Origin: Desulfovibrio sp.
GTDB taxonomy: Bacteria; Desulfobacterota; Desulfovibrionia; Desulfovibrionales; Desulfovibrionaceae
Assembly: GCA_031271265.1 (NCBI GenBank)
Contig: JAISWB010000099.1
Location: 1 to 47,649 of the forward strand
Direction: 5' to 3'
Length of the DNA stretch: 47,649 bases
Positions 17,571 through 46,775 of this stretch are shown here, one piece after another; within the stretch, counting starts at the first letter, position 1; every line of letters starts with the position of its first letter. The position numbers and the translations under genes were made by a program. The notes under the pieces were generated by a model that was not told where the DNA came from, searched no databases, and saw only the letters and a program-made list of their open reading frames with translations.

Positions 17571-17594
17571 GTCATTCTGAGCGAAGCGAAGAAT
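17571..17594. repeat. TCATTCTGAGCG-type interspersed repeat, locus A
   Basis: GTCATTCTGAGCGAAGCGAA followed by GAAT, in the gap between gatB and the chemoreceptor gene. The same word family recurs at 21789-21811 and twice, as an inverted pair, at 36820-36890. Confidence 0.8.
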
Positions 17595-17614
17595 ACATCG
17601 TTGCCGCGATTTCC

Positions 17615-21788: not shown

Positions 21789-21811
21789 GTCATTCCGAGC
21801 GAAGCGAAGAA
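21789..21811. repeat. TCATTCTGAGCG-type interspersed repeat, locus B
   Basis: GTCATTCCGAGCGAAGCGAA followed by GAA. One base differs from locus A. Read on the minus strand it forms the last codons (FFASLGMTE) of the relic frame described next. Confidence 0.7.
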
Positions 21812-22050
21812 GCCGTCGAAGCGCGTATCGGGGTCGATGCCGAGTCCTCGCAGGTTGACGGCAAAGAGCTTTGCGCCTGTAAGGTCCACGCCGTCGAGGC
21901 GGCACTTGTGCAAGGCTCCGCCCGCGGCAGGATGTCAAACCGACAGCCCCGGCGGAGGCTGTATTCGCCGGTGAAGGCCGGAAGGTAAAACTGCTCCGGG
22001 ACCCGGTCGGCGGCCGAGGTTGAAAAAGTCCAAGTATAACCGCCGGGCAT
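21801..22050 (-). pseudogene. Possible frameshifted remnant ending in pentapeptide-like repeats
   Basis: A minus-strand frame starting at ATG 22050 (MPGGYTWTFSTS..., EYSLRRGCRFDI) loses coherence near 21935. A neighbouring frame then continues with HKCRLDGVDLTGAKLFAVNL, which looks like pentapeptide repeats (A/C-D/N-L-x-x). A single-base shift near 21930 would join the two. The end runs into the interspersed repeat at 21789. I cannot name the ancestor. Confidence 0.35.
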
Positions 22051-33026: not shown

Positions 33027-33054
33027 TTGACTCCGGCGTTCCGCGTTTTATGTA
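33027..33054 (+). promoter_or_regulatory. Probable sigma-70 promoter for the radical SAM gene
   Basis: TTGACT (33027-33032) and TATGTA (33049-33054) are separated by 16 bases and lie 33 bases ahead of the start codon at 33087. Confidence 0.45.
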
Positions 33055-33086
33055 TGAAAGTTCAGCAACACAAACAAAGGATACCC

Positions 33087-33968
33087 ATGCGCTACGAAGG
33101 CATGATCTACCGGCCGCCCTCGGAAGGGGAGAGTCTCATTATCCAGAGCACGATCGGCTGCCCGCACAACCGTTGCCGTTTCTGCAACATGTACAAGGCC
33201 AAGCGGTTCCGCATCCGCAAGGTTGCGGACATTCTTCAGGACATAGAGGAAGCCGGGCGGCTGTACGGCGATTTACCGCCGCGCACGTTGTTTCTTGCCG
33301 ACGGCAACAGCATCGTCATGCGCACTTCGCAGCTTTTGAGCGTCCTGCGTAAAATACGGGAGACTTTTCCCGGACTGGAGCGTGTGACGGCGTACGGCGC
33401 AGCGCAGTATGTCGCGCACAAGAGTCTTGAAGAATGGCGTGAGTTGCGCGATGCGGGGCTTTCGCGCATTCACTGCGGCATGGAGAGCGGCCACGATCCC
33501 TTGCTCCGTCTGGTCGGCAAAGGGACCACCATGCGCGGACAGATGGAGGCGGGCCGGTTGTTGCGTGAAGCTGGTTTCGAACTGAGCATGTATTATCTGG
33601 CCGGGCTGGGGGGCGACGCGATGCGCGAGGGCCACGCCGTAGACAGCGCCGCCGTGCTGAACGCCGCAGATCCGGATTTCATACGCATCCGCACCTTTTC
33701 ACCCATGCCCGGTACGGAGCTCGGCGACGAGTTCCTGCAGGGCAGGCTGAAGCTTTCCGAACCGCACGGCGTTCTGGCCGAACTGCGTATGCTGGTTGAA
33801 AGGCTCACGGGCAACGGTCTGCTGCTCAGCGACCATTGGTTGAACTTCGCCCCGGTGCACGGACGGCTGCCCGACGACCGTGACGTTATGCTCCGGCAGA
33901 TAGACAGGGCGCTGGCCCTGCCCGGTGATGCCTTCCGACCGATGGGCATGATCAGCGACAGTCTCTGA
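33087..33968 (+). CDS. Radical SAM protein, Elp3-like fold
   Basis: 293 residues from ATG 33087. The cluster motif is GCPHNRCRFCNMYK, a CxxxxCxxC spacing usual in this family (related proteins carry CxxNxCxFCxMY). FLADGNSIVMR occupies the SAM GGE-like strand, and AYGAAQYV, GLSRIHCGMESGHDPLLRLVGKG and FSPMPGTEL match the Elp3/MiaB/NifB-type TIM barrel. There is no TRAM, B12-binding or SPASM domain. The substrate is unknown. It has its own promoter and is convergent with the molybdopterin-oxidoreductase gene, 24 bases away. Confidence 0.85.
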   Translation: MRYEGMIYRPPSEGESLIIQSTIGCPHNRCRFCNMYKAKRFRIRKVADILQDIEEAGRLYGDLPPRTLFLADGNSIVMRTSQLLSVLRKIRETFPGLERVTAYGAAQYVAHKSLEEWRELRDAGLSRIHCGMESGHDPLLRLVGKGTTMRGQMEAGRLLREAGFELSMYYLAGLGGDAMREGHAVDSAAVLNAADPDFIRIRTFSPMPGTELGDEFLQGRLKLSEPHGVLAELRMLVERLTGNGLLLSDHWLNFAPVHGRLPDDRDVMLRQIDRALALPGDAFRPMGMISDSL

Positions 33969-33992: not shown

Positions 33993-36740
33993 TTACGGGA
34001 TGCTGCGCGTTGCGGCCGCGCCCCGGCGGGCGAGATTCAGCCAGTTGCCGGCTGCGCGTTCACAGAAGAGGACGGAATTCCGGCTCAACACCGGGAGATC
34101 CTCAAGCCATGCCTCCGAAAGGTGCGCATCGGAGTGCGCCTTCCATGTTGCGGAGATGTAGGAGCGTCCCTCAAGCACCTCCCGAATCCACGCCGCGAGC
34201 GTGCCCGCCTCCGCTTCCAGGTGGAACTGGAAGCCGTAGGAACACGCGCCCACCCGGAACATCTGGTTTTCGCACGCCTCGCCGCGCACCAGCAGAACGC
34301 CGCCCGGCGGCAGGGTAAAGGCGTCCCGGTGATACTCCATGAGCAGGGGTATGGACGTATCTCCGCCCAGCACGGGATCATCCCTCCCTTCCGGGGTGAC
34401 GGACAGGCGGGTAAAGCCGAATTCCGGGAACTTCATAGGCGCGACCGTTCCGCCGTGCGCGCGGGCCAGGAGTTGCGCCCCCAGGCAAATCCCGGCCACG
34501 GGTTTTCCTGCAGCGTCGAAGGCGCGCATCAGGGCCGTTTCCGCCCGGAAATACGGCGATGCCGCGTCATCATAGGCGTCTTGCGGTCCGCCCAGGACGA
34601 CCAGCGCGGCGTAGTCCCCGGAATCCGCCGGCAGGGCGTCTTTTTGCGGACGCAGCACGTCCGGCCGCGCCCCGCGCCGCTCCAGGGCCTTGCAGAATGC
34701 CCCCCCCGGAGCTTCACCGTGATTTTCCAGGACAAGCAGGCGCAACGGCGCGCCGCCGTCCTCCGCAAAAGGACGGACGGCCACGCGGGCGTCATAATAG
34801 GGCGTGCCGTTGCCCACCTTGCTCGCTATGGGCGGGGTGAGCCGGTTCAGGCCGTGCCCGCACTGCATCCAGCCGCCGCGTTCAACCACGACTATATCCC
34901 GGCGCTGTCCCTCGACGGTCTTGAGTTCGGCAGTCACGCTCCCGGCACGGTTTTCAAGGCGTATCGGATCGCCGTCCCGAAGGCCGAGACGTTCGGCCTC
35001 GGCGCGGGACAACGCGGCCGGAGGCAGGGCAACATGTTCGCGCGACGTGCGCTCCGAGCAGAGAAAGGCGTGCGGGGCCACGCTCATGAGGACGTACGGA
35101 TAGTCTTCGCAAGCTCCGGGCGCCTTCGGCGGCAGGTCCATGAATGACGGGTCGAGGTCGGTCAGGCAGCGGAATTTTCCGGAAGGGGTGGGGAAAATGC
35201 CGCCGCTGTACGGCACCATGGGTGCGTTCAGACGGAAGGGACCGCGTTTCAGGTCTGCCGGCCGGCAGCCCTGTGCCCGCAGAGGCGCGCAGATGTCGTA
35301 CAGCCAATCCTCAAGCGGGCGGCAATATTCGGCGGCAAAGGGGAAACGCCGGGCCAAGTCCTGAAAAACGTCGAACTCCGAGCGGCATTCTCCCAAAGGC
35401 CGGATGGCCCTGTTGACGCCGCCGACGTAATTGTGCCCGTAGCCGGCCGCCACATCGTCCTCTTCAAGAAAGGTGGTCGCGGGCAGAATAATGGAGGCGC
35501 AGTCCGCGGTGTCGTCCAGAAAATGCCCGGTGTAGACCACGGTTTCGGTCCGGCGCAAGGCTTCGGCCACGCTTGCGGAGTCGGGCGCCATGCAGACGGG
35601 ATTGGAAGCGCTTACAACGATCATCCGCACGGGCGGGTTCCGGGCGGCGAGGATTTCTTTGCCCACGGCAGGCATAAGGAAGGTGCGCCGGGGCTGATTG
35701 AGGTGATCGCCCCAGTATTTTTGGTCATATGGACCGTATTCTTCAAATCCCTGGCTTACCCCTCCGCCGGGGACGCCGAGGATGCCCGCGAGGGCGCCCA
35801 GGGCATCGACGGCCCGGACGGCATAGTGCGCGTATTCGTGGCGGTGCAGGCCCCAGCCCAGCAGGATGGACGTCGGCTTGTAATGCAGCAGCAAATCCGT
35901 CGTAAATTCCACGTCCGCGCGCGGAACATCGTGATAACGCTCCAACTCTTCCGAGCTAAAACGCCCGACAAGGGCGAGGTAGTCGTCACAGCCTTCCGTA
36001 TGGACGCGCATGAAATCCAGATCGGCTTTGCCGGAACGCAGAATGCGCCCGGCAATATCCAGGGCCAGAAAGGAGTCGGAGCCGGGGCGCGGCGCGATAT
36101 GCCGGTCGGTCTGCGCGGCAGTGCGGGTACGCACGGGATCAATCAGGGCGACCTTGCCTCCCCGTTTGCGGATGTCGGCCATGACCGCGCACAGGCTGAT
36201 GTTTGTGGAAACGGGATTTCTCCCCCAGAGTATCATGGAGTTGCTGTTGTAGTGGTCCAGCGGGTCATGCGAGACGCGTTCCCCCACATCCAGGTTCTGC
36301 GAGGCCTGCCCTGTGCCGCCGCACACCGTGCCGCGCAGAAAAGTCACCCCGCCCAGATGATTGAAAAAAAGGCGGTTCAGCAGTTTGAGGGCGGTGCGTT
36401 CGCCGAAACCCTGGTAATAGAATATGGCCTCCGGACCGTCTTCGGCGATGATTTTACGCATGCGGAGGGCGATCCGGTCCAGCGCTTCCTCCCAGGAGGC
36501 CCGGCGCAGCAGGCCGCCCACGCGGACAAGCGGGTGGAGCAGCCGTTCCGGGTCATGGACGCGCCGGACGTAGCGCGTGGTTTTCATGCAGGCATGCCCG
36601 CGCGTATAAGGATGTTCCGGCGCTCCCGTGAGTTTGACCAAGCGTTCGCCCGCGGGTGAACATGCCGTGACGGCGTGCAGTCCGCAGGTATTGGGGCAGT
36701 TGCGCGTACAGGTGGTATAAACGGTTTTTTCAGCAGGCAC
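33993..36740 (-). CDS. Molybdopterin oxidoreductase fused to a class I glutamine amidotransferase domain
   Basis: 915 residues from GTG 36740, chosen because AAAGGA lies five bases upstream; ATG 36776 is the alternative. Residues 11-19 (CTRNCPNTC) and a later HACMK bind a [4Fe-4S] cluster. RGTVCGGTGQASQNLDVG holds a Cys in a position that could ligate molybdenum, and MILWGRNPVSTNIS and LPATTFLEEDDVA are typical of the DMSO-reductase superfamily. LGLRDGDPIRLENRAGSV is the C-terminal pterin-binding barrel. From about residue 666 a class I GATase domain follows without a break: VVLGGPQDAYDD, nucleophile Cys752 in GICLGAQLLA, and His840/Glu842 in GFQFHLEAE. No Tat signal is seen, so it is probably cytoplasmic. 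I know of no described fusion of these two domains. It is the last gene of the transporter cluster. Confidence 0.88.
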   Translation of the reverse strand: MPAEKTVYTTCTRNCPNTCGLHAVTACSPAGERLVKLTGAPEHPYTRGHACMKTTRYVRRVHDPERLLHPLVRVGGLLRRASWEEALDRIALRMRKIIAEDGPEAIFYYQGFGERTALKLLNRLFFNHLGGVTFLRGTVCGGTGQASQNLDVGERVSHDPLDHYNSNSMILWGRNPVSTNISLCAVMADIRKRGGKVALIDPVRTRTAAQTDRHIAPRPGSDSFLALDIAGRILRSGKADLDFMRVHTEGCDDYLALVGRFSSEELERYHDVPRADVEFTTDLLLHYKPTSILLGWGLHRHEYAHYAVRAVDALGALAGILGVPGGGVSQGFEEYGPYDQKYWGDHLNQPRRTFLMPAVGKEILAARNPPVRMIVVSASNPVCMAPDSASVAEALRRTETVVYTGHFLDDTADCASIILPATTFLEEDDVAAGYGHNYVGGVNRAIRPLGECRSEFDVFQDLARRFPFAAEYCRPLEDWLYDICAPLRAQGCRPADLKRGPFRLNAPMVPYSGGIFPTPSGKFRCLTDLDPSFMDLPPKAPGACEDYPYVLMSVAPHAFLCSERTSREHVALPPAALSRAEAERLGLRDGDPIRLENRAGSVTAELKTVEGQRRDIVVVERGGWMQCGHGLNRLTPPIASKVGNGTPYYDARVAVRPFAEDGGAPLRLLVLENHGEAPGGAFCKALERRGARPDVLRPQKDALPADSGDYAALVVLGGPQDAYDDAASPYFRAETALMRAFDAAGKPVAGICLGAQLLARAHGGTVAPMKFPEFGFTRLSVTPEGRDDPVLGGDTSIPLLMEYHRDAFTLPPGGVLLVRGEACENQMFRVGACSYGFQFHLEAEAGTLAAWIREVLEGRSYISATWKAHSDAHLSEAWLEDLPVLSRNSVLFCERAAGNWLNLARRGAAATRSIP

Positions 36741-36775
36741 GGCAATCCTTTCGCGTCGCGTTGCGGCTTGGACCA

Positions 36776-36939
36776 TTCTAAGGAAACGCTGATTTATTTT
36801 TTTGAAAAGCAAAAAGATGGATTCTTCGCTACGCTCAGAATGACAAAAGCGTAGTCATTCTGAGCCGTAGCGAAGTGAAGGCGAAGAATCTATCTTGATG
36901 TCTTTTGCCTTTCCTGCATTAATCAGCGTTTCCCTAAGG
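36776..36939. mobile_element. MITE-like inverted-repeat element (about 164 bp)
   Basis: The ends are inverted repeats: TCTAAGGAAACGCTGATTTA (36777-36796) against CCTTAGGGAAACGCTGATTA read inward from 36939 on the other strand. Inside, GATTCTTCGC...CTCAGAATGAC (36820-36844) and GTCATTCTGAG...GCGAAGAATC (36854-36890) form a second inverted pair, so the element could fold into one long hairpin. There is no transposase and no clear target duplication. It lies between two genes of the cluster and has entered the 3' end of the radical SAM gene. Confidence 0.7.
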
Positions 36940-37886
36940 TGTTGATGTGTTCCCGGCAAGACGTCGCCCTCCCGGTTCTGCGCCATGCAACCGCCCTGGC
37001 AACGGCGCATGAACTCTTTGCACGAACGGCATTCCTCGGCGGCGCGCCGTCCCCGGAGCGGGCGCGCGGCTTCGGCAAAGTGCAGGCGCAGGGCTTCTTC
37101 ACCGGAAAAGGCGGTGACGTCCGGAATCCGCAGGTCGTGCAGCGGCAGACAGTAAGACACGGACAAATCCGGGTGTATATCCAGGGAAGGAGCGCAAATC
37201 CCGGTGAATTTCGCGGAAAAGCGTTCCATAAAAGTCCGTTGTTCCGGTTCTGTTTCGCACATGCGCAGACAGCAATCTATCCCCAAGCCCACGCCGAGGC
37301 GCGCGCATTGTTCCGCAAAGGCCGCAACGGCGGCGAGAAGCCGCGCTGTCGTCCCCGGCGGCGCATAATCATTGCTCCCGAACGCATCGGGCCGAGAAAT
37401 GTCGCAGCGCACGAAAGAGACATCGTACTTGACGATGCTCTTCAGCAAATAGGTGTAATCGGCGTAACGGGGTGAAAAGTTTTTGGAGAAGGTCACGCGG
37501 GCGCCCGCAGCGCGCAGCAGCACCAAGTTGTCGTGCAGGCGCCGTCTCTGCCTTGGGGAAAGCAGTTCGGGGGGATTGCAGTTGACGATGAAGTTTGTCG
37601 CGCTCCCGCTCAGGCGCTCCATCAACGCGGGCGCGCCCAGACCGTTGGTGAAAATGCTCACGGCTGCGCCTGCTTGCGCCGTCCGCTCGACCATTTCCGC
37701 CAGGCGCGGGTGCAACGTGGGTTCTCCGCCGATGAACGCCAAACGGTAAAGCTCGACCCGTATGCACCAGGCAAGAAATTTTTCAAAGTCGTCCCTGGCG
37801 ATCCACCGCGGATACAGCGGTTGCAAAGCCCGCGCAAAGCAATATGGGCAGCGCAGGTTGCAGGCGTAACCGACAAAAAGATTCAC
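36855..37886 (-). CDS. Radical SAM protein with SPASM-like C terminus
   Basis: 343 residues. The N terminus has the radical SAM motif CNLRCPYC and the SAM-binding FIGGEPTLHP. The C-terminal half holds cysteines arranged as in SPASM/twitch domains (CAPSLDIHPDLSVSYC, then CRSCKEFMRRCQGGC), which bind auxiliary iron-sulfur clusters. Such enzymes modify peptides or proteins, for example as sulfatase or quinohaem-amine-dehydrogenase maturases. The GTG start overlaps the upstream ABC ATPase stop as GTGA, so translation is coupled to the transporter. The last 27 residues (LRETLINAGKAK...) are encoded by the MITE-like element, so the native C terminus has been replaced. The true substrate is unknown; no small precursor-peptide gene is evident nearby. 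Confidence 0.85.
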   Translation of the reverse strand: MNLFVGYACNLRCPYCFARALQPLYPRWIARDDFEKFLAWCIRVELYRLAFIGGEPTLHPRLAEMVERTAQAGAAVSIFTNGLGAPALMERLSGSATNFIVNCNPPELLSPRQRRRLHDNLVLLRAAGARVTFSKNFSPRYADYTYLLKSIVKYDVSFVRCDISRPDAFGSNDYAPPGTTARLLAAVAAFAEQCARLGVGLGIDCCLRMCETEPEQRTFMERFSAKFTGICAPSLDIHPDLSVSYCLPLHDLRIPDVTAFSGEEALRLHFAEAARPLRGRRAAEECRSCKEFMRRCQGGCMAQNREGDVLPGTHQHLRETLINAGKAKDIKIDSSPSLRYGSE

Positions 37887-39127
37887 AGCTCGAAAACCCG
37901 CCCGCCTGCCCGGCGTAGGATATTCCTGCGGGAAACCCGGTCAAAGGCCGTGAGGCGTTCCCGGTCCGCCACGGTAAAGGCCAGGTCCTGTCCGATGCGG
38001 ATCTGCGCCCGCTGCGCGGCGGAACACAGCATGCCGACCTGCTCCCGGCCGCACCGCACGGTGATGACGGACCGCAGCCCCAACGACTCGATATCCGTCA
38101 CCTGCCCGACGGCATGGTCGCGCGCGCCGGGTATGCCGGTCCACCCACCCGCCTCCGGCGCAGAAGGGGAGGAAAACAGGACGCGGACGTTTTCCGGCCG
38201 TATGCCCAGAAGAAAACCGCCCGGTCCGGCCCGGAGCATATGTTCGGCAGCCTCCTCCAACGCCGTCGGCAGCGGGAAGGCCAGCCCGGCGCAATGTATC
38301 AGGCCCTCGCGGAACTCCGCATGCAGGACGGCGATCTGCGGCGATCCCACAAAAAGGGCCGCCTCGCAGTCCACCGGATAATCGTACAAATCTTCCGGCG
38401 GAGAAGCCTGCACAATTTTTCCGGACCGCAGCAGCAACACCGTGTCGGCAACGGCCAGAGCTTCGGCAAAATCGGGGGTGGCCATGAGAAAGGTACGCCC
38501 CTCCTCCCTCTGCAGACGTTTCAGTTCCGCGCGCAGTTCAAAACGCAGGGGGGCGTCGAGGCTGGACAGGGGTTCGTCCAGAAGGAAGACGCGGGGTGAG
38601 CGGACCAGCGCCCGCCCCAAGGCTGTTCTCTGCCGTTCTCCGCCGCTCATGGTTTTGGGGAGCCGTTCCAGAACATGCTCAATACGCAGCTTCGCGGCAA
38701 CGGCGCCAACACGCCGCTTGATTTCCTCACGGGGCAGCTTGCGCTCCAGCAGGGGCCCGGCTATGTTCTGAAAGCCGGTTTTGTGCGGATACAGGGCAAG
38801 ATTGTCGAAAATCATCGCGATATCGCGATCTTTCGGCTCAAGTCCGGCAACGGATTCGCCGCTCATGAGGATGTCTCCGCCGCTTTCCCGCTCCAGACCG
38901 GCCAGCAGGCGCAGGGTGGTGGTCTTGCCGGCTCCGGCGGGTCCGAGAATCACGACAAAGGACTCCGGGGGAACGCTGAAGGATACCCTGTCCAGGGCCG
39001 TCTTCCGGCCGTAATGCTTGCTCAGTTCCCGCGCTTCAAGCACGGGAACGCCGGACGCGGAATACGCCTCGGACGCCGCCGTCGTCGTCGTCGTCGTCGC
39101 TGCTGTCGTTATAGGGCATTTCAACAT
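37883..39127 (-). CDS. ABC transporter ATPase, MalK/GlpS-like, degenerate catalytic loops
   Basis: 414 residues. The ABC domain has Walker A GPAGAGKTT (from residue 62), signature MSGGERQRTALGRAL and Walker B VFLLDEP (Glu185), followed by a MalK-type C-terminal OB domain (LLGIRPENVRV). Two switch residues are altered: the Q-loop reads MIFDNLALYPH, with Asp108 for the usual Gln, and the H-loop reads LMATPDFAEA, with Pro218 for the usual His. The partner ATPase upstream is canonical at both. The pair therefore resembles a two-ATPase importer with one weak site. The N terminus carries six Thr in a row from a trinucleotide repeat. A GTG at 39043 would remove it. The gene overlaps the radical SAM gene by four bases. 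Confidence 0.9.
   Translation of the reverse strand: MLKCPITTAATTTTTTAASEAYSASGVPVLEARELSKHYGRKTALDRVSFSVPPESFVVILGPAGAGKTTTLRLLAGLERESGGDILMSGESVAGLEPKDRDIAMIFDNLALYPHKTGFQNIAGPLLERKLPREEIKRRVGAVAAKLRIEHVLERLPKTMSGGERQRTALGRALVRSPRVFLLDEPLSSLDAPLRFELRAELKRLQREEGRTFLMATPDFAEALAVADTVLLLRSGKIVQASPPEDLYDYPVDCEAALFVGSPQIAVLHAEFREGLIHCAGLAFPLPTALEEAAEHMLRAGPGGFLLGIRPENVRVLFSSPSAPEAGGWTGIPGARDHAVGQVTDIESLGLRSVITVRCGREQVGMLCSAAQRAQIRIGQDLAFTVADRERLTAFDRVSRRNILRRAGGRVFEL
39081..39099. repeat. (GTC)6 trinucleotide microsatellite
   Basis: Six GTC units in a row on the plus strand encode TTTTTT near the N terminus of the ABC ATPase on the minus strand. Changes in unit number would keep the frame. Confidence 0.85.
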
Positions 39128-39195
39128 TGATTTTTTATGCCTCCGGCGGCCGGGACTTTGTCCAGTCGGCCTTGCACCCGCTCAGGCCGACTCCT

Positions 39196-39224
39196 GCCGG
39201 AGGAAATGATTTCCCCCTGACCCT
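39196..39224. repeat. GC-rich palindromic interspersed repeat, copy 2
   Basis: GCCGGAGGAAATGATTTCCC plus CCTGACCCT, in the 189-base gap between the two ABC ATPase genes. It is preceded by a GCCTCCGGCGGCCGGG block (from about 39138), as at copy 1. Confidence 0.6.
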
Positions 39225-39316
39225 CTCTTTCGGAATGTATGCTTTCGAAGTTAAACCGCTCTAATTCCGTCCTGCGGATCGGCATGGCTTTCCCTCCTTC
39301 CCGGCGTCCGGCATGC

Positions 39317-40648
39317 TTACTGCGGCACGGGCACGAACGCGCTTTCCAGGCGCAGATTGCTGTCGCCGTCAAAGAGAACGACGGTTTCCGGAGCAAGAGT
39401 CAGTCCCACGGGGGTACCCTTGCTCAAGGAAAAGTCGCCTGACGCCGACGGGTTTTCAAGGGCCGCAGGCAGGCCGTCCGCGCTGCGCACCGCGGTGAGC
39501 GTAGTGCCGGTCTTCAGCCCGGACGGATTGCAGCCGCCGGCGTTGCGCGTTGGGGGGAGCCCGGCGCAAGGTGCTGCCTTAAGCTTGTGTTCGACAACGC
39601 ATTGCAACGGGCTGCCGTGGGAACTCAGATTGACCACGGCATCGCCGCCCCGAATTTCAACGCCGAGAATTTCTCCCTGCCACAGCCCCTGTTCCGGGGG
39701 AACAAGGGTGAGATCCTCGGCCCTGAAACCCAGGGCATACTGTTTGTTCGCGCCGCGTTCCCGCACCAGAGCAGGTAGGGTGCAGGCCGGAAACAGCACC
39801 GTAAAGGCGGCATGGGTAAATTTCACGCCGCCTTCGGCATCGGCGAGCCTGCCGCGCAGGATGTTCATGGGCGGTGAACCCAGAAACTGCGCCACCTGCA
39901 CATGGCCGGGAAACTGCATGATCCGGAGGGTTTCCTCGGCCTGGATGATTTTGCCGTGATTCATAATCGCGACGCGGTCGGCCAAAGACAGGGCTTCTGT
40001 CTGGTCGTGCGTCACATAAATGATGCTCAGATGCAGTTCCTGTTGCAGACGCCTGAGTTCTTGGCGTACGGCCGGGCGGGCGGAGGCTTCCAGGTTGGAA
40101 AGGGGTTCATCCAGCAGGAGCAGGGCGGGTCTGGTCACAAGGGTGCGTCCTATGGCCACTCTCTGTTGCTCGGAGCCGCTCAACCGGCCGGCCTTGATGT
40201 CCAGGCACTCCGTCAGGCCCAGAAGCTCCGCGATCTTGTGTACTTCGCTCCTTACGACGGCTTTGTCGGTCTTGCGGACTTTCAGACCGAAAGCCAGGTT
40301 GTCGCGCACGCTCATGGCGGCGAACACAGCGTAGTCCTGAAAGACCAGGCCGACATCGCGCCGGCCGGCGGGCACATCGATCACGGACCTGCCGTCTATG
40401 CGTATGTCCCCGGAACTCGGTTGCTCCAGGCCGACGATCATGTTCAGGGTCGTGGATTTGCCGCAACCGGAAGGTCCGAGCAACGCCAGCGTTTCCCCGC
40501 TTTCCACGGTAAAGCTGATGTCGTCAACCGCGACAACGGCCCCGTCCCTGTACACTTTCGTCAGGCCGGCCACTTCCAGCTTCGGGATACCCGAACGGTT
40601 CAACGTCGGCAGTGCAGATTCCTGATGAGGGGGTCCGGGGGAAATCAT
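39317..40648 (-). CDS. ABC transporter ATPase, MalK/GlpT-like, canonical
   Basis: 443 residues from ATG 40648. All catalytic loops are present: Walker A LLGPSGCGKST, Q-loop VGLVFQDYAVF, signature LSGSEQQRVAIGRTL, Walker B LLLLDEPLSNLE and H-loop YVTHDQTEALSLADR. The C-terminal OB domain (ALGFRAEDLTLVPP, GTPVGLTLAPETVVLFDGDSNLRL) is interrupted by an extra segment of about 45 residues (APCAGLPPTRNAGGCNPSG...). The apparent ATG lies inside the palindromic repeat at 40629; a TTG at 40603, directly before NRSGIPKLEV, is an alternative start. It pairs with the degenerate ATPase downstream to power the importer. Confidence 0.9.
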   Translation of the reverse strand: MISPGPPHQESALPTLNRSGIPKLEVAGLTKVYRDGAVVAVDDISFTVESGETLALLGPSGCGKSTTLNMIVGLEQPSSGDIRIDGRSVIDVPAGRRDVGLVFQDYAVFAAMSVRDNLAFGLKVRKTDKAVVRSEVHKIAELLGLTECLDIKAGRLSGSEQQRVAIGRTLVTRPALLLLDEPLSNLEASARPAVRQELRRLQQELHLSIIYVTHDQTEALSLADRVAIMNHGKIIQAEETLRIMQFPGHVQVAQFLGSPPMNILRGRLADAEGGVKFTHAAFTVLFPACTLPALVRERGANKQYALGFRAEDLTLVPPEQGLWQGEILGVEIRGGDAVVNLSSHGSPLQCVVEHKLKAAPCAGLPPTRNAGGCNPSGLKTGTTLTAVRSADGLPAALENPSASGDFSLSKGTPVGLTLAPETVVLFDGDSNLRLESAFVPVPQ

Positions 40649-40710
40649 TTCCCCCGGCGGGGTCCGGGGCGGAGCCCCGGCGGGGTTTGGGGCGGAGCCC
40701 CGGCCGCCGG
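40629..40710. repeat. GC-rich palindromic interspersed repeat, copy 3
   Basis: The longest of the three copies. It contains GGGGGAAATCATTTCCCCC, a near-perfect palindrome, followed by two CCGGGGCGGAGCCCCGG-like stems. It separates the second permease from the first ATPase and supplies the ATPase's apparent start codon on the minus strand. Confidence 0.8.
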
Positions 40711-40739
40711 AAGCGCGTAACCTCAGCATTGCGATGCTC

Positions 40740-41600
40740 TCATTGCTTGACGGCTCCGAAGGTCATGCCGCGGGCCAGATGTCCCTGAATGAAAAAACCT
40801 CCCAGCACCAGGGGAAGCATGGCCAGCACGGCCAGAGCGGCTTGTACTCCGTAGAGGGTGCCCGCCGTGGCCGTGACGTATTTCGCAAGCTGCACGGGAA
40901 TGGTATTGATGTTGCTGTATGAAAGCACCAACGCGAACATGAACTCGGACCAGTTGAGGATAAAGACCAGCATGGTGGTGGCGAAAAGTCCGCCTTTGAT
41001 CAGGGGAATGGTGACGGTAAGATGGGCTTTCAGGCGCGACATGCCGTCAAGCATGGCGGCTTCCTCGATTTCCCTGGGCAGGTCGTCCACGAAACTTTTA
41101 AGCATCCAGGTCGAAAAAGGCAGGGTCACCGCAACGTAAACGGTGATAAGCCCGGCATAGGTGTCGATGAGTCCGACCAGAGAAAAGATGATCACAAAGG
41201 GAACGGCTATGGCCGCGGGCGGAAACATGCGCCCCGAAAGAATGACGAGGGGAGCGGAACGGCTGCCCTTGCTGTAGCGGGACAGGCCGATGGCGGAAAA
41301 GATGCCGGTGCCTACGGAAATGAGCGTGGAAACCGTGGACGCGAGGAGAGAGCCGAATACGGCGTCTCCCGCGGACCGGCTTACCCCTCCCACCCCGTAT
41401 TCCCTGATGGCGTCGGGATCGAACAGGGTCTTGAAGTTGACGAGCGTAGGCTCGGCGGGTACCCAGATCGCCGGCGAGGCGTTCCAGTCCGTGGGGGGTT
41501 TGACGGCCGTCATGAACAGCCAGAAAATCGGAAAGAGTACGAGGATCAGGGCGCAGCACAGCGCTGTCCGCAACGGCAGGGACAATGTTCGCGGGGGCAT
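40740..41600 (-). CDS. ABC transporter permease, MalG type
   Basis: 286 residues with about six membrane helices, from ALCCALILVLFPIFWLFMTAV to ALAVLAMLPLVLGGFFIQG. The EAA loop that docks on the ATPase is EIEEAAMLDGMSRLKAHLTVTIPL. The short periplasmic region after helix 1 (VKPPTDWNASPAIW...NFKTLFDP) is typical of the carbohydrate CUT1 MalG/UgpE class. Its start overlaps the stop of the other permease as TGATG, with GGAGGAAAG just upstream, so the two subunits are translationally coupled. Confidence 0.93.
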   Translation of the reverse strand: MPPRTLSLPLRTALCCALILVLFPIFWLFMTAVKPPTDWNASPAIWVPAEPTLVNFKTLFDPDAIREYGVGGVSRSAGDAVFGSLLASTVSTLISVGTGIFSAIGLSRYSKGSRSAPLVILSGRMFPPAAIAVPFVIIFSLVGLIDTYAGLITVYVAVTLPFSTWMLKSFVDDLPREIEEAAMLDGMSRLKAHLTVTIPLIKGGLFATTMLVFILNWSEFMFALVLSYSNINTIPVQLAKYVTATAGTLYGVQAALAVLAMLPLVLGGFFIQGHLARGMTFGAVKQ

Positions 41601-42592
41601 CAGCGTCTTTCCTCCATAATGTGATCCTTGACCGGGATAAGCAGCAGATGCACCAGAAACAGCGAACCCACCAGCACGAGGAAGGCCGCCGCCGCGCCGT
41701 AGGCCAGTTGAAAATCGTTGAAGGCCAGCTTGTAAATATAGAGGCTGACGGTTTCCGTAGAAGAACCCGGCCCGCCGCGGGTCAGCATGAACACTTCGTC
41801 GAACAGCTTGATGATCTCCATGGTCCGGACGACAAAGGCGACCATGATCACCGGGCGCAGCATGGGCAGAACGACGTGGACGAAGAGCTGCCCCGGACTC
41901 GCTCCGAGAATGACCGCCGCGCGCAGCGGGTTTTCCGGAACGGCGTTGAGCCCGGAGAGCAGGATGAGAAAAAACAGGGGAGTCCAGTGCCACACCTCGG
42001 TGAGAATTACCGCGCTCACGGCGGGCAGCGAGCTTTTGAACCATTCCACCCCGGACAGGCCGACGAAGCCCAGGATCTGGTTCACCGGCCCGTTGGCCTG
42101 AAAAAGCATCCAGAAGGTGTAACCCACGACCACCGGCAGGACCATCATCGGGCTGAGAAAGGCGGAAAACAGGATTTTTTTCCCCCGGAAACGGCGCATG
42201 AAGAGCACGGCCAACCCCAGGCCGGCCGCAAACTCCAGGGCGAGACAGATCGCGGAAATGATCAGGGTGCGCGCGACGGCTTCCAGAAAACGGGTATCCC
42301 ATATCAGCAGTTCGCTGTAGTTTTCCGTGCCGGTAAAATGCGCTTCCGCCAAACCGCCGCGGGTGGGCGTCCAGTCGGTAAAGCTCATGTACAGGGCGAC
42401 GGCGAGCGGTATTACCAGGACAAGGACGGAAACGACCTGCCCCGGAACGGTAAAGGCCCGTCCCACAGGGAAGCTCTTCCCGGCGGGGCGGGAGGCGCGG
42501 CTCCCGCCGTACGCCGCGCCTTCCGCAACCACCGGGGTCACCTGTCCCGATCGGTCTTCATTCCGACCCGGTAATGCGCCTTCCGTAACCAC
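41600..42592 (-). CDS. ABC transporter permease, MalF type
   Basis: 330 residues from GTG 42592. The core has six membrane helices (VVSVLVLVIPLAVALYMSF first, FLVLVGSLFLVHLLLIPV last) and the EAA loop PLRAAVILGASPGQLFVHVVLPML. The start is uncertain. GTG 42592 has AAGG eight bases upstream and lies 10 bases after the solute-binding protein stop. GTG 42541 and GTG 42466 would give shorter N termini, and 42466 leaves the usual short cytoplasmic lead before helix 1. The extra N terminus contains a 60-base direct repeat (TPVVTEGA / TPVVAEGA). Confidence 0.88.
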   Translation of the reverse strand: MVTEGALPGRNEDRSGQVTPVVAEGAAYGGSRASRPAGKSFPVGRAFTVPGQVVSVLVLVIPLAVALYMSFTDWTPTRGGLAEAHFTGTENYSELLIWDTRFLEAVARTLIISAICLALEFAAGLGLAVLFMRRFRGKKILFSAFLSPMMVLPVVVGYTFWMLFQANGPVNQILGFVGLSGVEWFKSSLPAVSAVILTEVWHWTPLFFLILLSGLNAVPENPLRAAVILGASPGQLFVHVVLPMLRPVIMVAFVVRTMEIIKLFDEVFMLTRGGPGSSTETVSLYIYKLAFNDFQLAYGAAAAFLVLVGSLFLVHLLLIPVKDHIMEERR

Positions 42593-42602
42593 CGGGGTCG
42601 CC
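42516..42602. repeat. 60-base direct repeat at the start of the MalF-type permease gene
   Basis: GCGCCTTCCGCAACCACCGG plus GGTCACC (42516-42542) and its near copy at 42576-42602 are offset by exactly 60 bases. In the permease frame they encode TPVVAEGA and TPVVTEGA. Both copies contain GTG codons that could act as starts. Confidence 0.75.
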
Positions 42603-44171
42603 TTACAGAGTCCAGGAGGCGCGTCCCGTCGCCTTTTTGATGGGTTCGGCCAAGTTTGCCGTAAGCGCGAACCAGGATTTTCTGACTTTATCCTTGCCCG
42701 CGCGCCGCGTGATGCGCTCAAAAGCCTTTGAGGCGTCATCCAGAGCGGCCTTGGGTTTCTTTTCCCCGGTCATGCAGGCGTGTACTTCCTTGTCCAGAGC
42801 ATCCTGGTATTCGAAACCGCCGGGCAGGCAGAAGTCCGGCACGGTGTTGACGATGTTGTTGTAGAGTATTTTCAGGTAATCTTTGGTATAGGTTTCCACC
42901 AACCGTTCCGTCGGGTCCAGCATGTGATTGATGCGGTACGGGTCGGAGTACCCGCCGAGATAGGGGATGGCGTCGGCCGATATGGTCGGCGAGGTCATCC
43001 ACTGGGCGTAGGCGTAGGCAAGCTCCGGATTGGCGGAATACCTGGATACGGCAAAGCCGTACCCCCAGCAGAACATGCCTGCGTACAGCCTGCTGCCGTC
43101 CGGCAGTATATCGGCGGGCATGACCGTGGCCGTGATTTTTCCTGTGGTGGCCGGGCCTGTGGACGGCGCTTTGCTGTACTTGAAGCCTGAAGGCCAGACG
43201 ATATTCATGAAACCTTCTCCCCGGCCGAAGGCATTGTAATTTGAGGACCAGGTAAAACTGAAGGCATCGGGATGCAGGAATTGATTCACAGCCAGCATGT
43301 CTTCAAGCACTTGCAGACCTTCAGGCGAATTGAAGGTCGGATTCATATCCTGATCGAACCAGAGGCGGCCCTTTGAAGCAAGGCGCTGCATGAACATCCA
43401 TTTGGCATAATAGCGGGAACGGTACTCAAGACTCCCGTAAAAATTGTTTTTCGGGTCGTGCATGAAGGAAGCCAGGGTGTAATATTCCTTCCAGGTATGG
43501 GGAACGTCGAGCTTGTAGCCGAATTTGTCCTCAAAGGCCTTGGCCTTGGCGGCGTCCTTGATGTGATCCCCGCGACAGAGCAGGGTAATCTGGTCACCGT
43601 CGCAGAGCAGGCCGACCACACGACCGTTGTACAACTGGGCATGGTGGCTCGCCGGGAACACCACTCCCCAGGTGTCGTGAAAAATATCCGGTTGATAGGT
43701 TTCGACCCAATCCGTCAGATCGTAGATGAGACCGGAATCCAGCCAGTCCGGGTAAGACATGGCCGTGGGCATCATGACATCGTAGCGTCCGGTTTTGGCC
43801 ACAGCCTCCTGCATGCCCTTCGTGTGTACCACTTCGTCCGGTTCTTCAATGAATTCCAGGGTGATGCCGAGTTCGTTTTTCCATTTGTCGGCATAGGGGG
43901 TCATATTGCCGATGGAGCCGGTAGGTATGAGCAGGGTCAGGGTCTTTTTGGTCGCCTTGGCCGCTGCCGCTTTGGCCAGCGCCCAAGCCCTCGCTTCCGC
44001 GCCGTTGACGGCGGCCCAGACGTTGACCGCGCCCAGGGGCGAGAGACCGACCAGGTCGGCAAGCGCGCCGCTCACGCCGAGCAGGCCCATCGTATAAAGA
44101 AAGCGGCGCCTGCTCATTTTGCCTGCGGCATAGTTTTCCACCACAGCGTTGACGGCTTGTTTGTCCTGCAT
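42603..44171 (-). CDS. Tat-exported ABC solute-binding protein
   Basis: 522 residues from ATG 44171, preceded by GGAAGG. The N terminus has a twin-arginine signal MSRRRFLYTMGLLGVSGALADLVGL (split as SRRRFL plus a hydrophobic stretch), so it should be exported folded. The mature protein is a large type-1 family solute receptor with TLTLLIPTGS, YDVMMPTAMSYPDWLDSGLIYDL, AFGRGEGFMNIVWPSG and CWGYGFAVSRYSANPELAYAYAQWM. Size, the two permeases and the two ATPases resemble the rhizobial glycerol importer GlpSTPQV, but the ligand is not thereby fixed. Many aromatic residues (Trp, Tyr) suggest a polyol, sugar or amine ligand. Confidence 0.9.
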   Translation of the reverse strand: MQDKQAVNAVVENYAAGKMSRRRFLYTMGLLGVSGALADLVGLSPLGAVNVWAAVNGAEARAWALAKAAAAKATKKTLTLLIPTGSIGNMTPYADKWKNELGITLEFIEEPDEVVHTKGMQEAVAKTGRYDVMMPTAMSYPDWLDSGLIYDLTDWVETYQPDIFHDTWGVVFPASHHAQLYNGRVVGLLCDGDQITLLCRGDHIKDAAKAKAFEDKFGYKLDVPHTWKEYYTLASFMHDPKNNFYGSLEYRSRYYAKWMFMQRLASKGRLWFDQDMNPTFNSPEGLQVLEDMLAVNQFLHPDAFSFTWSSNYNAFGRGEGFMNIVWPSGFKYSKAPSTGPATTGKITATVMPADILPDGSRLYAGMFCWGYGFAVSRYSANPELAYAYAQWMTSPTISADAIPYLGGYSDPYRINHMLDPTERLVETYTKDYLKILYNNIVNTVPDFCLPGGFEYQDALDKEVHACMTGEKKPKAALDDASKAFERITRRAGKDKVRKSWFALTANLAEPIKKATGRASWTL

Positions 44172-44225
44172 GATCAACCTTCCTTATTTTTGGAGTACTT
44201 TCAGCTTCGTGCCCGCAAAGCGGGT

Positions 44226-45329
44226 TCAAAGCAGTTCATAGGCGCTGTAGGCATTTTCACAGGGATTGCCGAGACAGAACTCGAAGCGGCCGGCGGCCGG
44301 CTCCATAATGAGGGCAAAAACCGTGTGAAAGGCGCGCGTTTCGTCCTCTTCGGGAAAACCGTGCGCACATATGCAGCGGGGATAGTTGGTGTGGTCGCGG
44401 GACAATTCCTTGAGCATATCCATGCTCAACGATCCCCTGCGGGAGCGCAGAAAGCGTTCCGCCGCCTGTTTTCTGACCATGGACCCGCCGTGCGACAGCC
44501 AGCCGGCCGTCTCGAAACGGCGCATGCCCGGCGCCAGCCAGTGATTGGTGTGGGCAAGCACGCCGTCCGGTTCCAGAAGTTCGTAGTGCGAGGCCGAGGT
44601 TTCCGCGCAAAAGGCCGCGCCGTCTCCGGCCAGTTGATAGGTCATGCCCGCGGCGCGCGGAGAAAAAATCACCGCCCCCAGGCTGTCGCCTATACGTTCG
44701 GCGGCAAGAGCCTTGCGGACGATAAACGGATACACGACCCCCGGCGCGGCATCGGAGGCCACAACTTTGTTGATGACCAGACCCGTCCCGACGCTGTTCA
44801 GACCGGCCAGCCCCAGGACGCCCGGCAGGCTGACCACCAACTGGACCGGACCGTTTTCCGGATGCAGGCGCAGAAGACAGATGAACTGTTCATAATATTT
44901 TTCCATGTCATAGGTTTGTCCTAAAAAGGCGCGCCCTTCCGCCCCGGCTTCGGCGGTCACGCAAAAGGTTGTGCAGCCCCGGCGCGGAGCATGCAGCAAC
45001 CCGCCGCCCAAAGACGGGGCACGGAGGTCCTCCAGTTCAAGGAAGGCATTGAGGTACAGCACTTCCTCCACGGACAGGTCGGCCCCGTCGGCTATGCCCG
45101 TCATTTCCGCATGGAGGTCGGGTGAAAAGCTCCGCAGAAAGCCCTGGTTCCGCAGGCAGAAGGCGACCAGTCTCTCGCGGTCCGTCCGCGCACAGACGTT
45201 GTTGTTGCGGTGCACGCCGTCAACGCCGTCCAGAAAGGCGTGAATTGCTTCCTTGAGTACCTGACCGTGCCGGCGCCCCATTGCATACGGAGTGCCCTCC
45301 AGGTCGACAACCTGCAACGACCTTGCCAT
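44226..45329 (-). CDS. C45-family acyltransferase/amidohydrolase (Ntn-hydrolase)
   Basis: 367 residues. The fold and motifs match the acyl-CoA:6-aminopenicillanate acyltransferase group (peptidase family C45). YAMGRRHGQVLKEAI is the usual N-terminal region. The segment RRGCTTFCVTAEAG contains Cys119, the expected N-terminal nucleophile exposed after self-cleavage, and AFLGQTYDME follows. NSVGTGLVINKV, LAHTNHW and LSRDHTNYPRCICAHG are further family marks. Such enzymes form or break amide bonds of small molecules. The ATG is preceded by GGAGA. It lies between the glutamine-synthetase-like ligase and the solute-binding protein, so its substrate is probably the imported compound or a product of it. 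Confidence 0.88.
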   Translation of the reverse strand: MARSLQVVDLEGTPYAMGRRHGQVLKEAIHAFLDGVDGVHRNNNVCARTDRERLVAFCLRNQGFLRSFSPDLHAEMTGIADGADLSVEEVLYLNAFLELEDLRAPSLGGGLLHAPRRGCTTFCVTAEAGAEGRAFLGQTYDMEKYYEQFICLLRLHPENGPVQLVVSLPGVLGLAGLNSVGTGLVINKVVASDAAPGVVYPFIVRKALAAERIGDSLGAVIFSPRAAGMTYQLAGDGAAFCAETSASHYELLEPDGVLAHTNHWLAPGMRRFETAGWLSHGGSMVRKQAAERFLRSRRGSLSMDMLKELSRDHTNYPRCICAHGFPEEDETRAFHTVFALIMEPAAGRFEFCLGNPCENAYSAYELL

Positions 45330-45392
45330 GACGATTCTCCGCGCCTTATTCGTATTTCAGATTAAAACCGCATTACGGAATTATTCGGGGAC

Positions 45393-46775
45393 TCAAAGCA
45401 GTTCAAGGTAGTAATCCCATTCACGGGGATCCACTCTGCTGTTGAATGACGGCGAGTCGTAATCATTGAAGCGGGACCGGGCCAGTTCTTCCTCGTGCCG
45501 TTTCACCGCCGTCACCAGACGGACGAATTCCGGATGCAAAAGTTCCTGCAGAGCCTTGTCCTGCTCAAAGGCGGCAATGGATTCACCCAGCCGTTTCGGA
45601 AGCGCGGGCAGGGCCGGGTTGCCGTAGGCCACAACGTCGACGGGGTCCGGAAGGGGCGGATCGGAGAGTATACCTTCCAGGCCGGCGGCCAGGGTACTCA
45701 CCGCCGGCAGGTAGGGATTGCTCGCGCCGCAGGCCAGACGGTTCTCAAAGTGGGTGCTTTCACCGCGCGCCCCTTTCAGACGTATCCCGACTGTGCGGTT
45801 TTCCAACCCCCAGGTGGCGGTATCCGGGGCAAAGGAGTTGACGCGGTAGCGTTTGTAGCAGTTGACCGTCGGCGCGGTGAACAGCGTATTCGCCCGTGCA
45901 TGTTTCAGTATCCCGGCCAGAAAACGACGGGCGATCCCGCTCAGGCCGTACGCTTCGTCCGGCGCGTTGAAGGCGTTCCTGCCCGTTTCCTTGTCGATCA
46001 GGCTGATGTGGAAATGTGAGCCGGACGCGCTGGAATCAATGAAAGGTTTGGTCATGAAGGTAGCTGTGTACCCGTGCTGCAAAGCGATTTCCTTGACGCC
46101 GGTGCGGAAGAGAAAGGCCGTGTCCGCCGCCGCGATGCCGTCCATGTAATGCAGATTTATTTCCTGCTGTCCCGGCCCGTGCTCCGAGTTCTGCGTGATC
46201 AGCCTGATCCCGGCCTTGTCCATTTTCCGCATGAGGTCGTATGTGAACTCTATGTCGAAATTATTCCTGAGGGTCACAAAAATCGGTTGCCCGCCGTACA
46301 CCGGGGTACGGCTGTCTTTGTGCAGGACATAAAATTCAAATTCGTAGCCCATCCGGCAGATGTAGCCCAGTTCGTCAAAGCGGTTCAGAAGTTTTTTCAA
46401 CAGCAGACGCGGGGAGGCCATGGCCGGAGTGCCGTCGTACCAATACGGGTCTATTATGATGTTCGCCGTACCCGGCACCCAAGGCAGCACCTTGAAGGTC
46501 GTGATATCCGGTACCGTGCAGTGATCCGCAAAGGCCACTTCCTCGGCGTAGCCTGTTCCTTGCGGAACAAGTGACTGTATATCCAGCCCGAGAAGGCCGC
46601 CGTAAAAGTTTAATCCGTTGTCCAGATAATTCATGAAACTGCCGACGGGCACAAGTTTGCTTCGGGATATGCCGTGCAAATCTCCTTGCTCAAAGCGGAT
46701 GAACTCGATCTTTTCGTCGCGGATTGTTTTTTGAATTTCACTGATTTTGTCGGAACGGGAAAATCCGGTGCCCAT
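45393..46775 (-). CDS. Glutamine-synthetase-family ligase (PuuA/gamma-glutamyl-amine type)
   Basis: 460 residues. It has the GS beta-grasp N terminus (FIRFEQGDLHGISRSKLVP) and the catalytic barrel. Metal and substrate residues are visible in MGYEFEFYVL, NSEHGPGQQEINLHY, GSHFHISL, WGLENRTVGIRL and HFENRLACGASNPYLP. The ATG follows GAGGT. The sequence departs from housekeeping GlnA, and family members of this shape ligate glutamate to amines (PuuA, GlnA3/4, FluG-like). In the cluster it comes first, followed by an amidohydrolase and an importer, which fits a catabolic gamma-glutamyl ligase better than ammonia assimilation. The exact amine is unknown. Confidence 0.9.
   Translation of the reverse strand: MGTGFSRSDKISEIQKTIRDEKIEFIRFEQGDLHGISRSKLVPVGSFMNYLDNGLNFYGGLLGLDIQSLVPQGTGYAEEVAFADHCTVPDITTFKVLPWVPGTANIIIDPYWYDGTPAMASPRLLLKKLLNRFDELGYICRMGYEFEFYVLHKDSRTPVYGGQPIFVTLRNNFDIEFTYDLMRKMDKAGIRLITQNSEHGPGQQEINLHYMDGIAAADTAFLFRTGVKEIALQHGYTATFMTKPFIDSSASGSHFHISLIDKETGRNAFNAPDEAYGLSGIARRFLAGILKHARANTLFTAPTVNCYKRYRVNSFAPDTATWGLENRTVGIRLKGARGESTHFENRLACGASNPYLPAVSTLAAGLEGILSDPPLPDPVDVVAYGNPALPALPKRLGESIAAFEQDKALQELLHPEFVRLVTAVKRHEEELARSRFNDYDSPSFNSRVDPREWDYYLELL

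Follow-up and report, generated by a model that had tools for sequence, protein, structure and literature searches.

We describe a set of nine genes in Desulfovibrio sp. (contig JAISWB010000099.1, of which the whole stretch analysed, 47,649 nucleotides, is here called the window) that we judge, with about even confidence, to encode a catabolic pathway, induced by its substrate, that takes up a primary amine (probably a hydroxylated or sugar-like one) and proceeds through glutamylation, oxidation by molybdenum (Mo) and radical SAM enzymes, and deglutamylation. The assignment of the first enzyme as a gamma-glutamyl-amine ligase is well supported by its sequence, while the catabolic direction, the order of the steps and the roles of the Mo enzyme, the radical SAM protein, the C45 hydrolase and the GATase domain are those we infer. 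All nine open reading frames lie on the minus strand at 33993-46775 (Table 1), and the genes, order, coordinates and protein families given in an initial annotation of this DNA agree throughout with the open reading frame list and with our profile searches. Its statement that several junctions overlap is accurate for permease 1/permease 2 and ATPase 2/radical SAM, the remaining junctions being short gaps. For permease 1, ATPase 1 and the Mo-GATase, homologues align only from within the longest frames, which leaves the start positions uncertain; ATPase 1 homologues, for example, align from about residue 49, and the start may be internal.

Table 1. Genes of the nine-gene unit, with positions in the window
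Feature	Coordinates	Strand	Remarks
GS-like ligase (GoaS / PuuA-IpuC type)	45393..46775	-	460 aa
C45-family autoproteolytic Ntn amidohydrolase	44226..45329	-	367 aa
Solute-binding protein, SBP_bac_1, twin-arginine signal	42603..44177	-	524 aa
ABC permease 1	41600..42574	-	ORF opens 42739; start uncertain, about 42574
ABC permease 2	40740..41600	-	286 aa; TGATG overlap with permease 1
ABC ATPase 1, UgpC/MalK type	39317..40729	-	
ABC ATPase 2, UgpC/MalK type with TOBE	37883..39127	-	
Radical SAM protein, SPASM-like cysteines	36855..37886	-	343 aa; GTGA overlap with ATPase 2
Mo/W-bisPGD oxidoreductase fused to class I GATase domain	33993..36812	-	one 939-aa frame

The host genome is 2.5 Mb and Desulfovibrio-like, and the nearest named relatives of the window are the Desulfovibrio MAG contigs Im510_bin59 and Nm470_bin149, which from their names we take to be termite-gut bins. 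A simple consensus scan for a sigma-54 promoter upstream of the GS-like gene returned nothing above shuffled sequences. Between the radical SAM and Mo genes lies a 23-bp element, CATTCTGAGCG[A/T]AGCGAAGAATC (36820-36842, minus strand), which recurs at 17573-17595 and 21791-21813 (both plus strand) and has 30 exact copies in the genome, compared with none for the reversed control. A second radical SAM gene (33027-33968, plus strand) converges on the cluster; among the loci examined only L003 also has it at that position, and it is probably unrelated to the cluster.

The gene at the head of the unit encodes a protein of the glutamine synthetase (GS) family (PF00120, 270.9 bits). In a phylogenetic tree it groups with PuuA and IpuC, apart from four true GlnA sequences, with support of 100/100 (the group also holds a Thermomicrobium protein, a Rhizobium protein and family f87, from another class of the phylum; L107 was left out), so that the grouping with true GlnA, named in the initial annotation as an outcome that would refute its reading, does not occur. 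Mapped onto E. coli GlnA, the ligase has Tyr58 for Asp50, Leu for Ser53 and Phe315 for Glu327, and both ammonium residues (Asp50 and Glu327) are, by this alignment, lost. The ATP, metal and glutamate residues are kept (Glu129/131/212/220/357, His269 and Arg321/339/344/359), with the other catalytic residues retained in 20 of 20 sequences. Loss of Asp50' together with the Glu-flap residue has been described for GoaS enzymes in a study of NpaA1 (PMC11335346), and the window ligase shares both this loss and the grouping with PuuA/IpuC. It scores 214 on the GlnA model (cut-off 429) and 220.8 bits on the PuuA equivalog model (cut-off 650), and it matches IpuC at 237 bits and PuuA at 150 bits; because all NCBIfam equivalog models fall far under their cut-offs, no known substrate can be assigned. 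A housekeeping glutamine synthetase was ruled out by the tree, by the residues and by two other GS-family genes in the host (frames of 752 and 883 aa, GSIII size), whose presence means that the window ligase is not needed for ordinary glutamine synthesis.

To ask how widely this arrangement is shared, we compared it across related genomes. Of 297 genomes surveyed in the order, 22 have the ligase at 70% identity or more; the radical SAM protein is found in all 22 of these and in no others, apart from a remnant in a single further genome. The order GS, C45, binding protein, permeases 1 and 2, ATPases 1 and 2, radical SAM and Mo-GATase is kept in 18 other loci from three families of the order. 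Upstream of the GS-like gene, 16 of the 18 loci have a histidine kinase gene in divergent orientation, accompanied in almost every case by one for a sigma-54-type response regulator, and in most lineages this pair is part of the unit; it is absent from that place in the window and in loci L002 and L036. Within family f87 the ligase is found in 6 of 63 genomes, at 53-58% identity. Three long f87 contigs place the transporter first (binding protein, permeases and ATPases, then GS, C45, radical SAM and Mo); in a fourth genome the importer lies on a separate contig from GS-C45-rSAM-Mo. The Mo protein is without the GATase domain in all four f87 genomes that have the cluster, and among nine GATase-family places found in one f87 genome none is similar to the Mo-fused domain. 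Because gene order is conserved, the GS-like and radical SAM genes co-occur, and gene content is conserved in another class, the nine-gene unit is not a chance grouping; the conserved synteny on which the initial annotation had staked its reading is thus found in related genomes, and in the other class as content with a changed order. Some genomes that have the cluster (G244 and G015, loci L110 and L111) encode an additional GS-like protein outside it, about 35% identical and also without the ammonium residues, from which it appears that more glutamylation systems may exist in this order.

The last gene of the unit encodes a protein with PF04879, PF00384 and PF01568 (Fe4S4, Molybdopterin and Molydop_binding) together with PF00117 (GATase). 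It has Fe4S4 cysteines at Cys35/39/43/75 and a metal ligand, Cys164, that is present in 41 of 41 sequences covering the site, and on these sequence features it is a member of the DMSO reductase family (bis-MGD) with a Cys ligand. A formate dehydrogenase was rejected (176 versus 666 bits; the CHG of Fdh aligns to CGG here, Gly replacing the His after Cys), as was selenocysteine, the flagged TGA codons lying at or outside the gene ends. Among the cluster genes none encodes a partner subunit or electron-transfer partner for the Mo enzyme. Many genomes keep the enzyme without the rest of the cluster, and it may therefore catalyse a general reaction that is not tied to this amine.

The initial annotation called the neighbouring protein a SPASM radical SAM enzyme, and we describe it as SPASM-like from its cysteine pattern: CX3CX2C plus Cys231, 246, 286, 289, 296 and 300 are present and invariant in 18 aligned sequences, but the Pfam SPASM model gave no score. 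Among solved structures, the nearest relatives match the core only, and an AlphaFold model of the protein alone has a pLDDT of 37. With the radical SAM motif starting as early as residue 9, the protein has neither an N-terminal recognition domain nor space for one, making RiPP maturation unlikely; a role as Mo-enzyme maturase is weakened by the persistence of the Mo-GATase in genomes without the radical SAM protein.

Two proteins of the unit are candidates for hydrolysing amide bonds. The C45 protein scores well above its family cut-off (NF040521, 206 versus 85 bits), and matches the isopenicillin acyltransferase structure; all 20 sequences compared have the nucleophile Cys119 together with Asp141 and Asn262. 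With isopenicillin N acyltransferase, itself of family C45, it shares the fold family, the nucleophile Cys and the key Asp/Asn, although that protein is a eukaryotic penicillin enzyme and the window has no evident acyl-CoA partner. Isopenicillin N acyltransferase cleaves a delta-aminoadipyl amide, which is chemically close to a gamma-glutamyl amide. The GATase domain (about residues 691-939 of the fused protein; PF00117 at 53.5 bits, with a partial C26 match at 23.0 bits) has the Cys, His and Glu residues of class I. It had been proposed as the equivalent of PuuD, a claim we do not uphold, as the domain has no significant BLAST similarity to PuuD (E 0.39), which leaves it outside the PuuD-type C26 hydrolases, and is not in the invariant core. 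It is also unlike the Ipu GATase, and resembles both the separate GATase of a Rhizobium version described below (E 8e-35) and a second GATase adjoining C45 in L043. This second, separate gene lies between C45 and the binding protein in genus g10 (L039 and L043), besides the fused domain, to which the L043 copy (7011-7706) is 37% identical. Since the f87 version is without the domain, with no similar GATase elsewhere in one f87 genome, the GATase step must be dispensable. Both Desulfobacterota versions have just one amide hydrolase in common, C45, and for this reason we prefer it as the putative invariant deglutamylase, for which it would be a better candidate than the GATase; the initial annotation listed the gene but gave it no role, despite its place in the invariant core.

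Comparison of genomes with and without the unit also revealed how it has been lost. In a tree of the Mo domain, copies from genomes that lack the cluster branch as sisters to copies that adjoin it. At L058, sister of L057, the flank runs up to the regulator gene, of which 148 bp remain; next come 61 bp of ATPase 1 and the radical SAM gene reduced to its 3' half, and then the Mo-GATase. The whole unit, regulator included, has been deleted. L051/L053 form the same kind of presence/absence pair, with clean ends. The catalytic residues of the GATase are intact in 20 of 20 Mo-GATases adjoining a ligase. Among 14 genomes that have no ligase, by contrast, six show damage: catalytic residues are lost in L062 and L054, and the domain is absent in L063-L066 (Fisher P 0.002, with no correction for relatedness). 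Counting L063/L064/L066 as one event, there are four independent losses, all on ligase-free lineages. Mo copies that have no GATase (the Mo-only L067-L073) form basal branches of the tree, suggesting that the Mo enzyme is older than the GATase fusion and has a function of its own.

The importer offers a view of the likely substrate. Its binding protein (SBP_bac_1, with a twin-arginine N-terminus, RRRF) is 77-86% identical across orders and in a Rhizobium plasmid, and with two BPD_transp_1 permeases and two ABC_tran ATPases the system is of the sugar/polyol class rather than Pot-type. On that plasmid, pRACO34Ab of Rhizobium sp. ACO-34A, the binding protein (77.5% identical) is followed by two permeases, two ATPases, a GATase, a GS-like ligase, an amidase-signature enzyme, a 2Fe-2S ferredoxin and SHMT, with a divergent MocR-type regulator whose best NCBIfam model, under its cut-off, is the rhizopine regulator. 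The importer layout is the same as in the window, and the GS-like protein and GATase are 41% and 37% identical to the window's; the amidase-signature enzyme, however, stands where the window has C45, the ferredoxin and SHMT where it has the Mo and radical SAM enzymes, and the MocR-type regulator contrasts with the two-component system. By analogy, this cluster may be regarded as an aerobic cousin of the window unit. Because of the rhizopine regulator model and the sugar/polyol class of the binding protein, an amino-polyol or aminocyclitol is a reasonable first guess at the substrate, made with low confidence.

Other plasmids carry parts of this arrangement. That of Thermomicrobium roseum (L079, 5876-11347) encodes, close together, a MoaD/ThiS protein, an aldehyde ferredoxin oxidoreductase, RidA and a GS-like ligase sharing 41% identity with the one in the window; this may be a further glutamylation unit, here with a tungsten enzyme. 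Phaeobacter and Alisedimentitalea plasmids (L077 and L078) have importers with a binding protein 40% identical, together with RidA, an alcohol dehydrogenase and a lone glycine-betaine-type binding protein; no ligase or GATase lies alongside these importers.

We found no published description of this gene combination in the open-licence literature, and compared it with known glutamylation pathways. The initial annotation had called the cluster Puu-like, and the general logic of ligase, redox enzyme, hydrolase and importer stands, as it does for ligation, oxidation and hydrolysis in the putrescine pathway of E. coli. The likeness does not extend to the components: the FAD oxidase PuuB, aldehyde dehydrogenase PuuC, C26 hydrolase PuuD and permease PuuP have no counterparts in the window, the profile search found no PuuB oxidase or PuuC dehydrogenase domain in the nine genes, and the PuuA model is far from reached. 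The closest known logic is instead that of the aerobic Ipu and Atd/Npa pathways. In Ipu (Pseudomonas KIE171, Paenarthrobacter aurescens TC1), IpuC glutamylates isopropylamine, a P450 system oxidises the gamma-glutamyl amide, and an amidotransferase-type hydrolase frees alaninol, returning glutamate (PMC6776027); the genes are clustered, as in the window (on pTC1: GS, GATase, P450, ferredoxin and reductase), and the GS-like ligase is of the same broad clade (32% identity). Ipu differs in requiring O2 (P450, ferredoxin, reductase), in its PuuD-like GATase, and in being without an ABC importer, C45, radical SAM or Mo enzyme. The Atd/Tdn/Npa pathways for aniline and 1-naphthylamine likewise use a GoaS ligase without Asp50 and the Glu-flap residue and have a GATase-like protein that reverses glutamylation, NpaA1-A5 being the analogous aerobic unit, but they are aerobic, act on an aromatic ring with a Rieske dioxygenase, and have no dedicated binding-protein importer described. 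There the dioxygenase does the oxidation and the GATase-like protein is not essential (PMC11335346).

In the pathway we propose, a Tat-exported binding protein and a two-ATPase ABC importer would bring in a primary amine, which the GS-like enzyme, no longer suited to ammonium, would couple to the gamma-carboxyl of glutamate at the expense of ATP, a well-supported step. The cytoplasmic, Cys-ligated Mo (or W) enzyme may then carry out the oxidation done in aerobes by P450 or Rieske oxygenases; the radical SAM protein may either act on the substrate itself or play an assisting part. Cleavage of gamma-glutamyl amides, with return of glutamate, would fall to the C45 Ntn-hydrolase, joined in Desulfovibrionales by the GATase domain. 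In most hosts the divergent kinase and sigma-54-type regulator would control the unit. Somewhat more tentatively, we suggest an anaerobic counterpart of oxygenase-based glutamylation, in which a Cys-ligated Mo/W enzyme and a SPASM-like radical SAM enzyme oxidise the gamma-glutamyl-tagged amine and C45 is the deglutamylase; to our knowledge, such a pterin-dependent oxidation of a gamma-glutamyl-tagged amine would be the first known. The GATase may mainly clear unreacted or stalled gamma-glutamyl amide, as proposed for the GATase-like AtdA2/NpaA2.

Other readings assign the hydrolases differently. C45 could act first instead of last, it (or the Rhizobium amidase) freeing the amine from an imported amide, with glutamylation and the GATase as a protect-and-release pair around Mo/radical SAM oxidation. 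Every version has an amidohydrolase, yet that of Desulfobacterota is a C45 protein and that of Rhizobium belongs to the unrelated amidase-signature family, which suggests that the same bond is cut in both. A further protein that could remove the glutamate is retained in the Rhizobium as well as the Desulfovibrionales version. The f87 version, however, with C45 only, would be left with no cluster-encoded enzyme to remove the glutamate, and we consider this reading rather unlikely, albeit the strongest of the alternatives. A true anaerobic Puu pathway for putrescine or another diamine, with the Mo enzyme replacing PuuB/PuuC and the fused GATase standing in for PuuD, would account for the presence of a ligase, a redox enzyme and a GATase hydrolase, and for the intact catalytic residues in all 20 GATase copies adjoining the ligase. 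We think it improbable given a ligase nearer to IpuC than to PuuA and far below the PuuA model (221 versus 650 bits), a GATase unrelated to PuuD by BLAST and absent in the other class, and an importer that is not Pot-type.

Class I GATases usually supply ammonia to a fused or bound partner. The domain might by analogy hydrolyse glutamine and channel ammonia to the Mo site, the fused enzyme carrying out an amination, and intramolecular transfer to a metallopterin site has a precedent in metallopterin ergothioneine synthase, where sulfur is channelled between fused domains (PMC9516567). This we hold to be very improbable: losses of GATase residues or of the whole domain accompany absence of the ligase, with the Mo domain still intact, and Rhizobium has this type of GATase as a free-standing protein, without the Mo enzyme. 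Marginally less probable again is a loose collection, a transporter-ligase operon that happens to be followed by a Mo-GATase with an unrelated housekeeping role. The Mo enzyme does stand alone in many genomes, and copies without the GATase are basal in the tree, but the Mo, radical SAM, C45 and GS-like genes occur together in another class in a changed order, and lone Mo-GATases with a traceable history arose by deletion of the rest.

Glutamate tagging of amines is known mainly from pathways in which the next step requires O2 or uses a flavin oxidase. For the pathway we favour, of glutamylation, Mo/radical SAM oxidation and deglutamylation, the importer's highly conserved binding protein is a direct route to the substrate. 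If correct, this pathway would show how strict anaerobes, gut bacteria included, may break down amines, and would provide a function for a Mo-enzyme family and a C45 branch that have both been without one so far.
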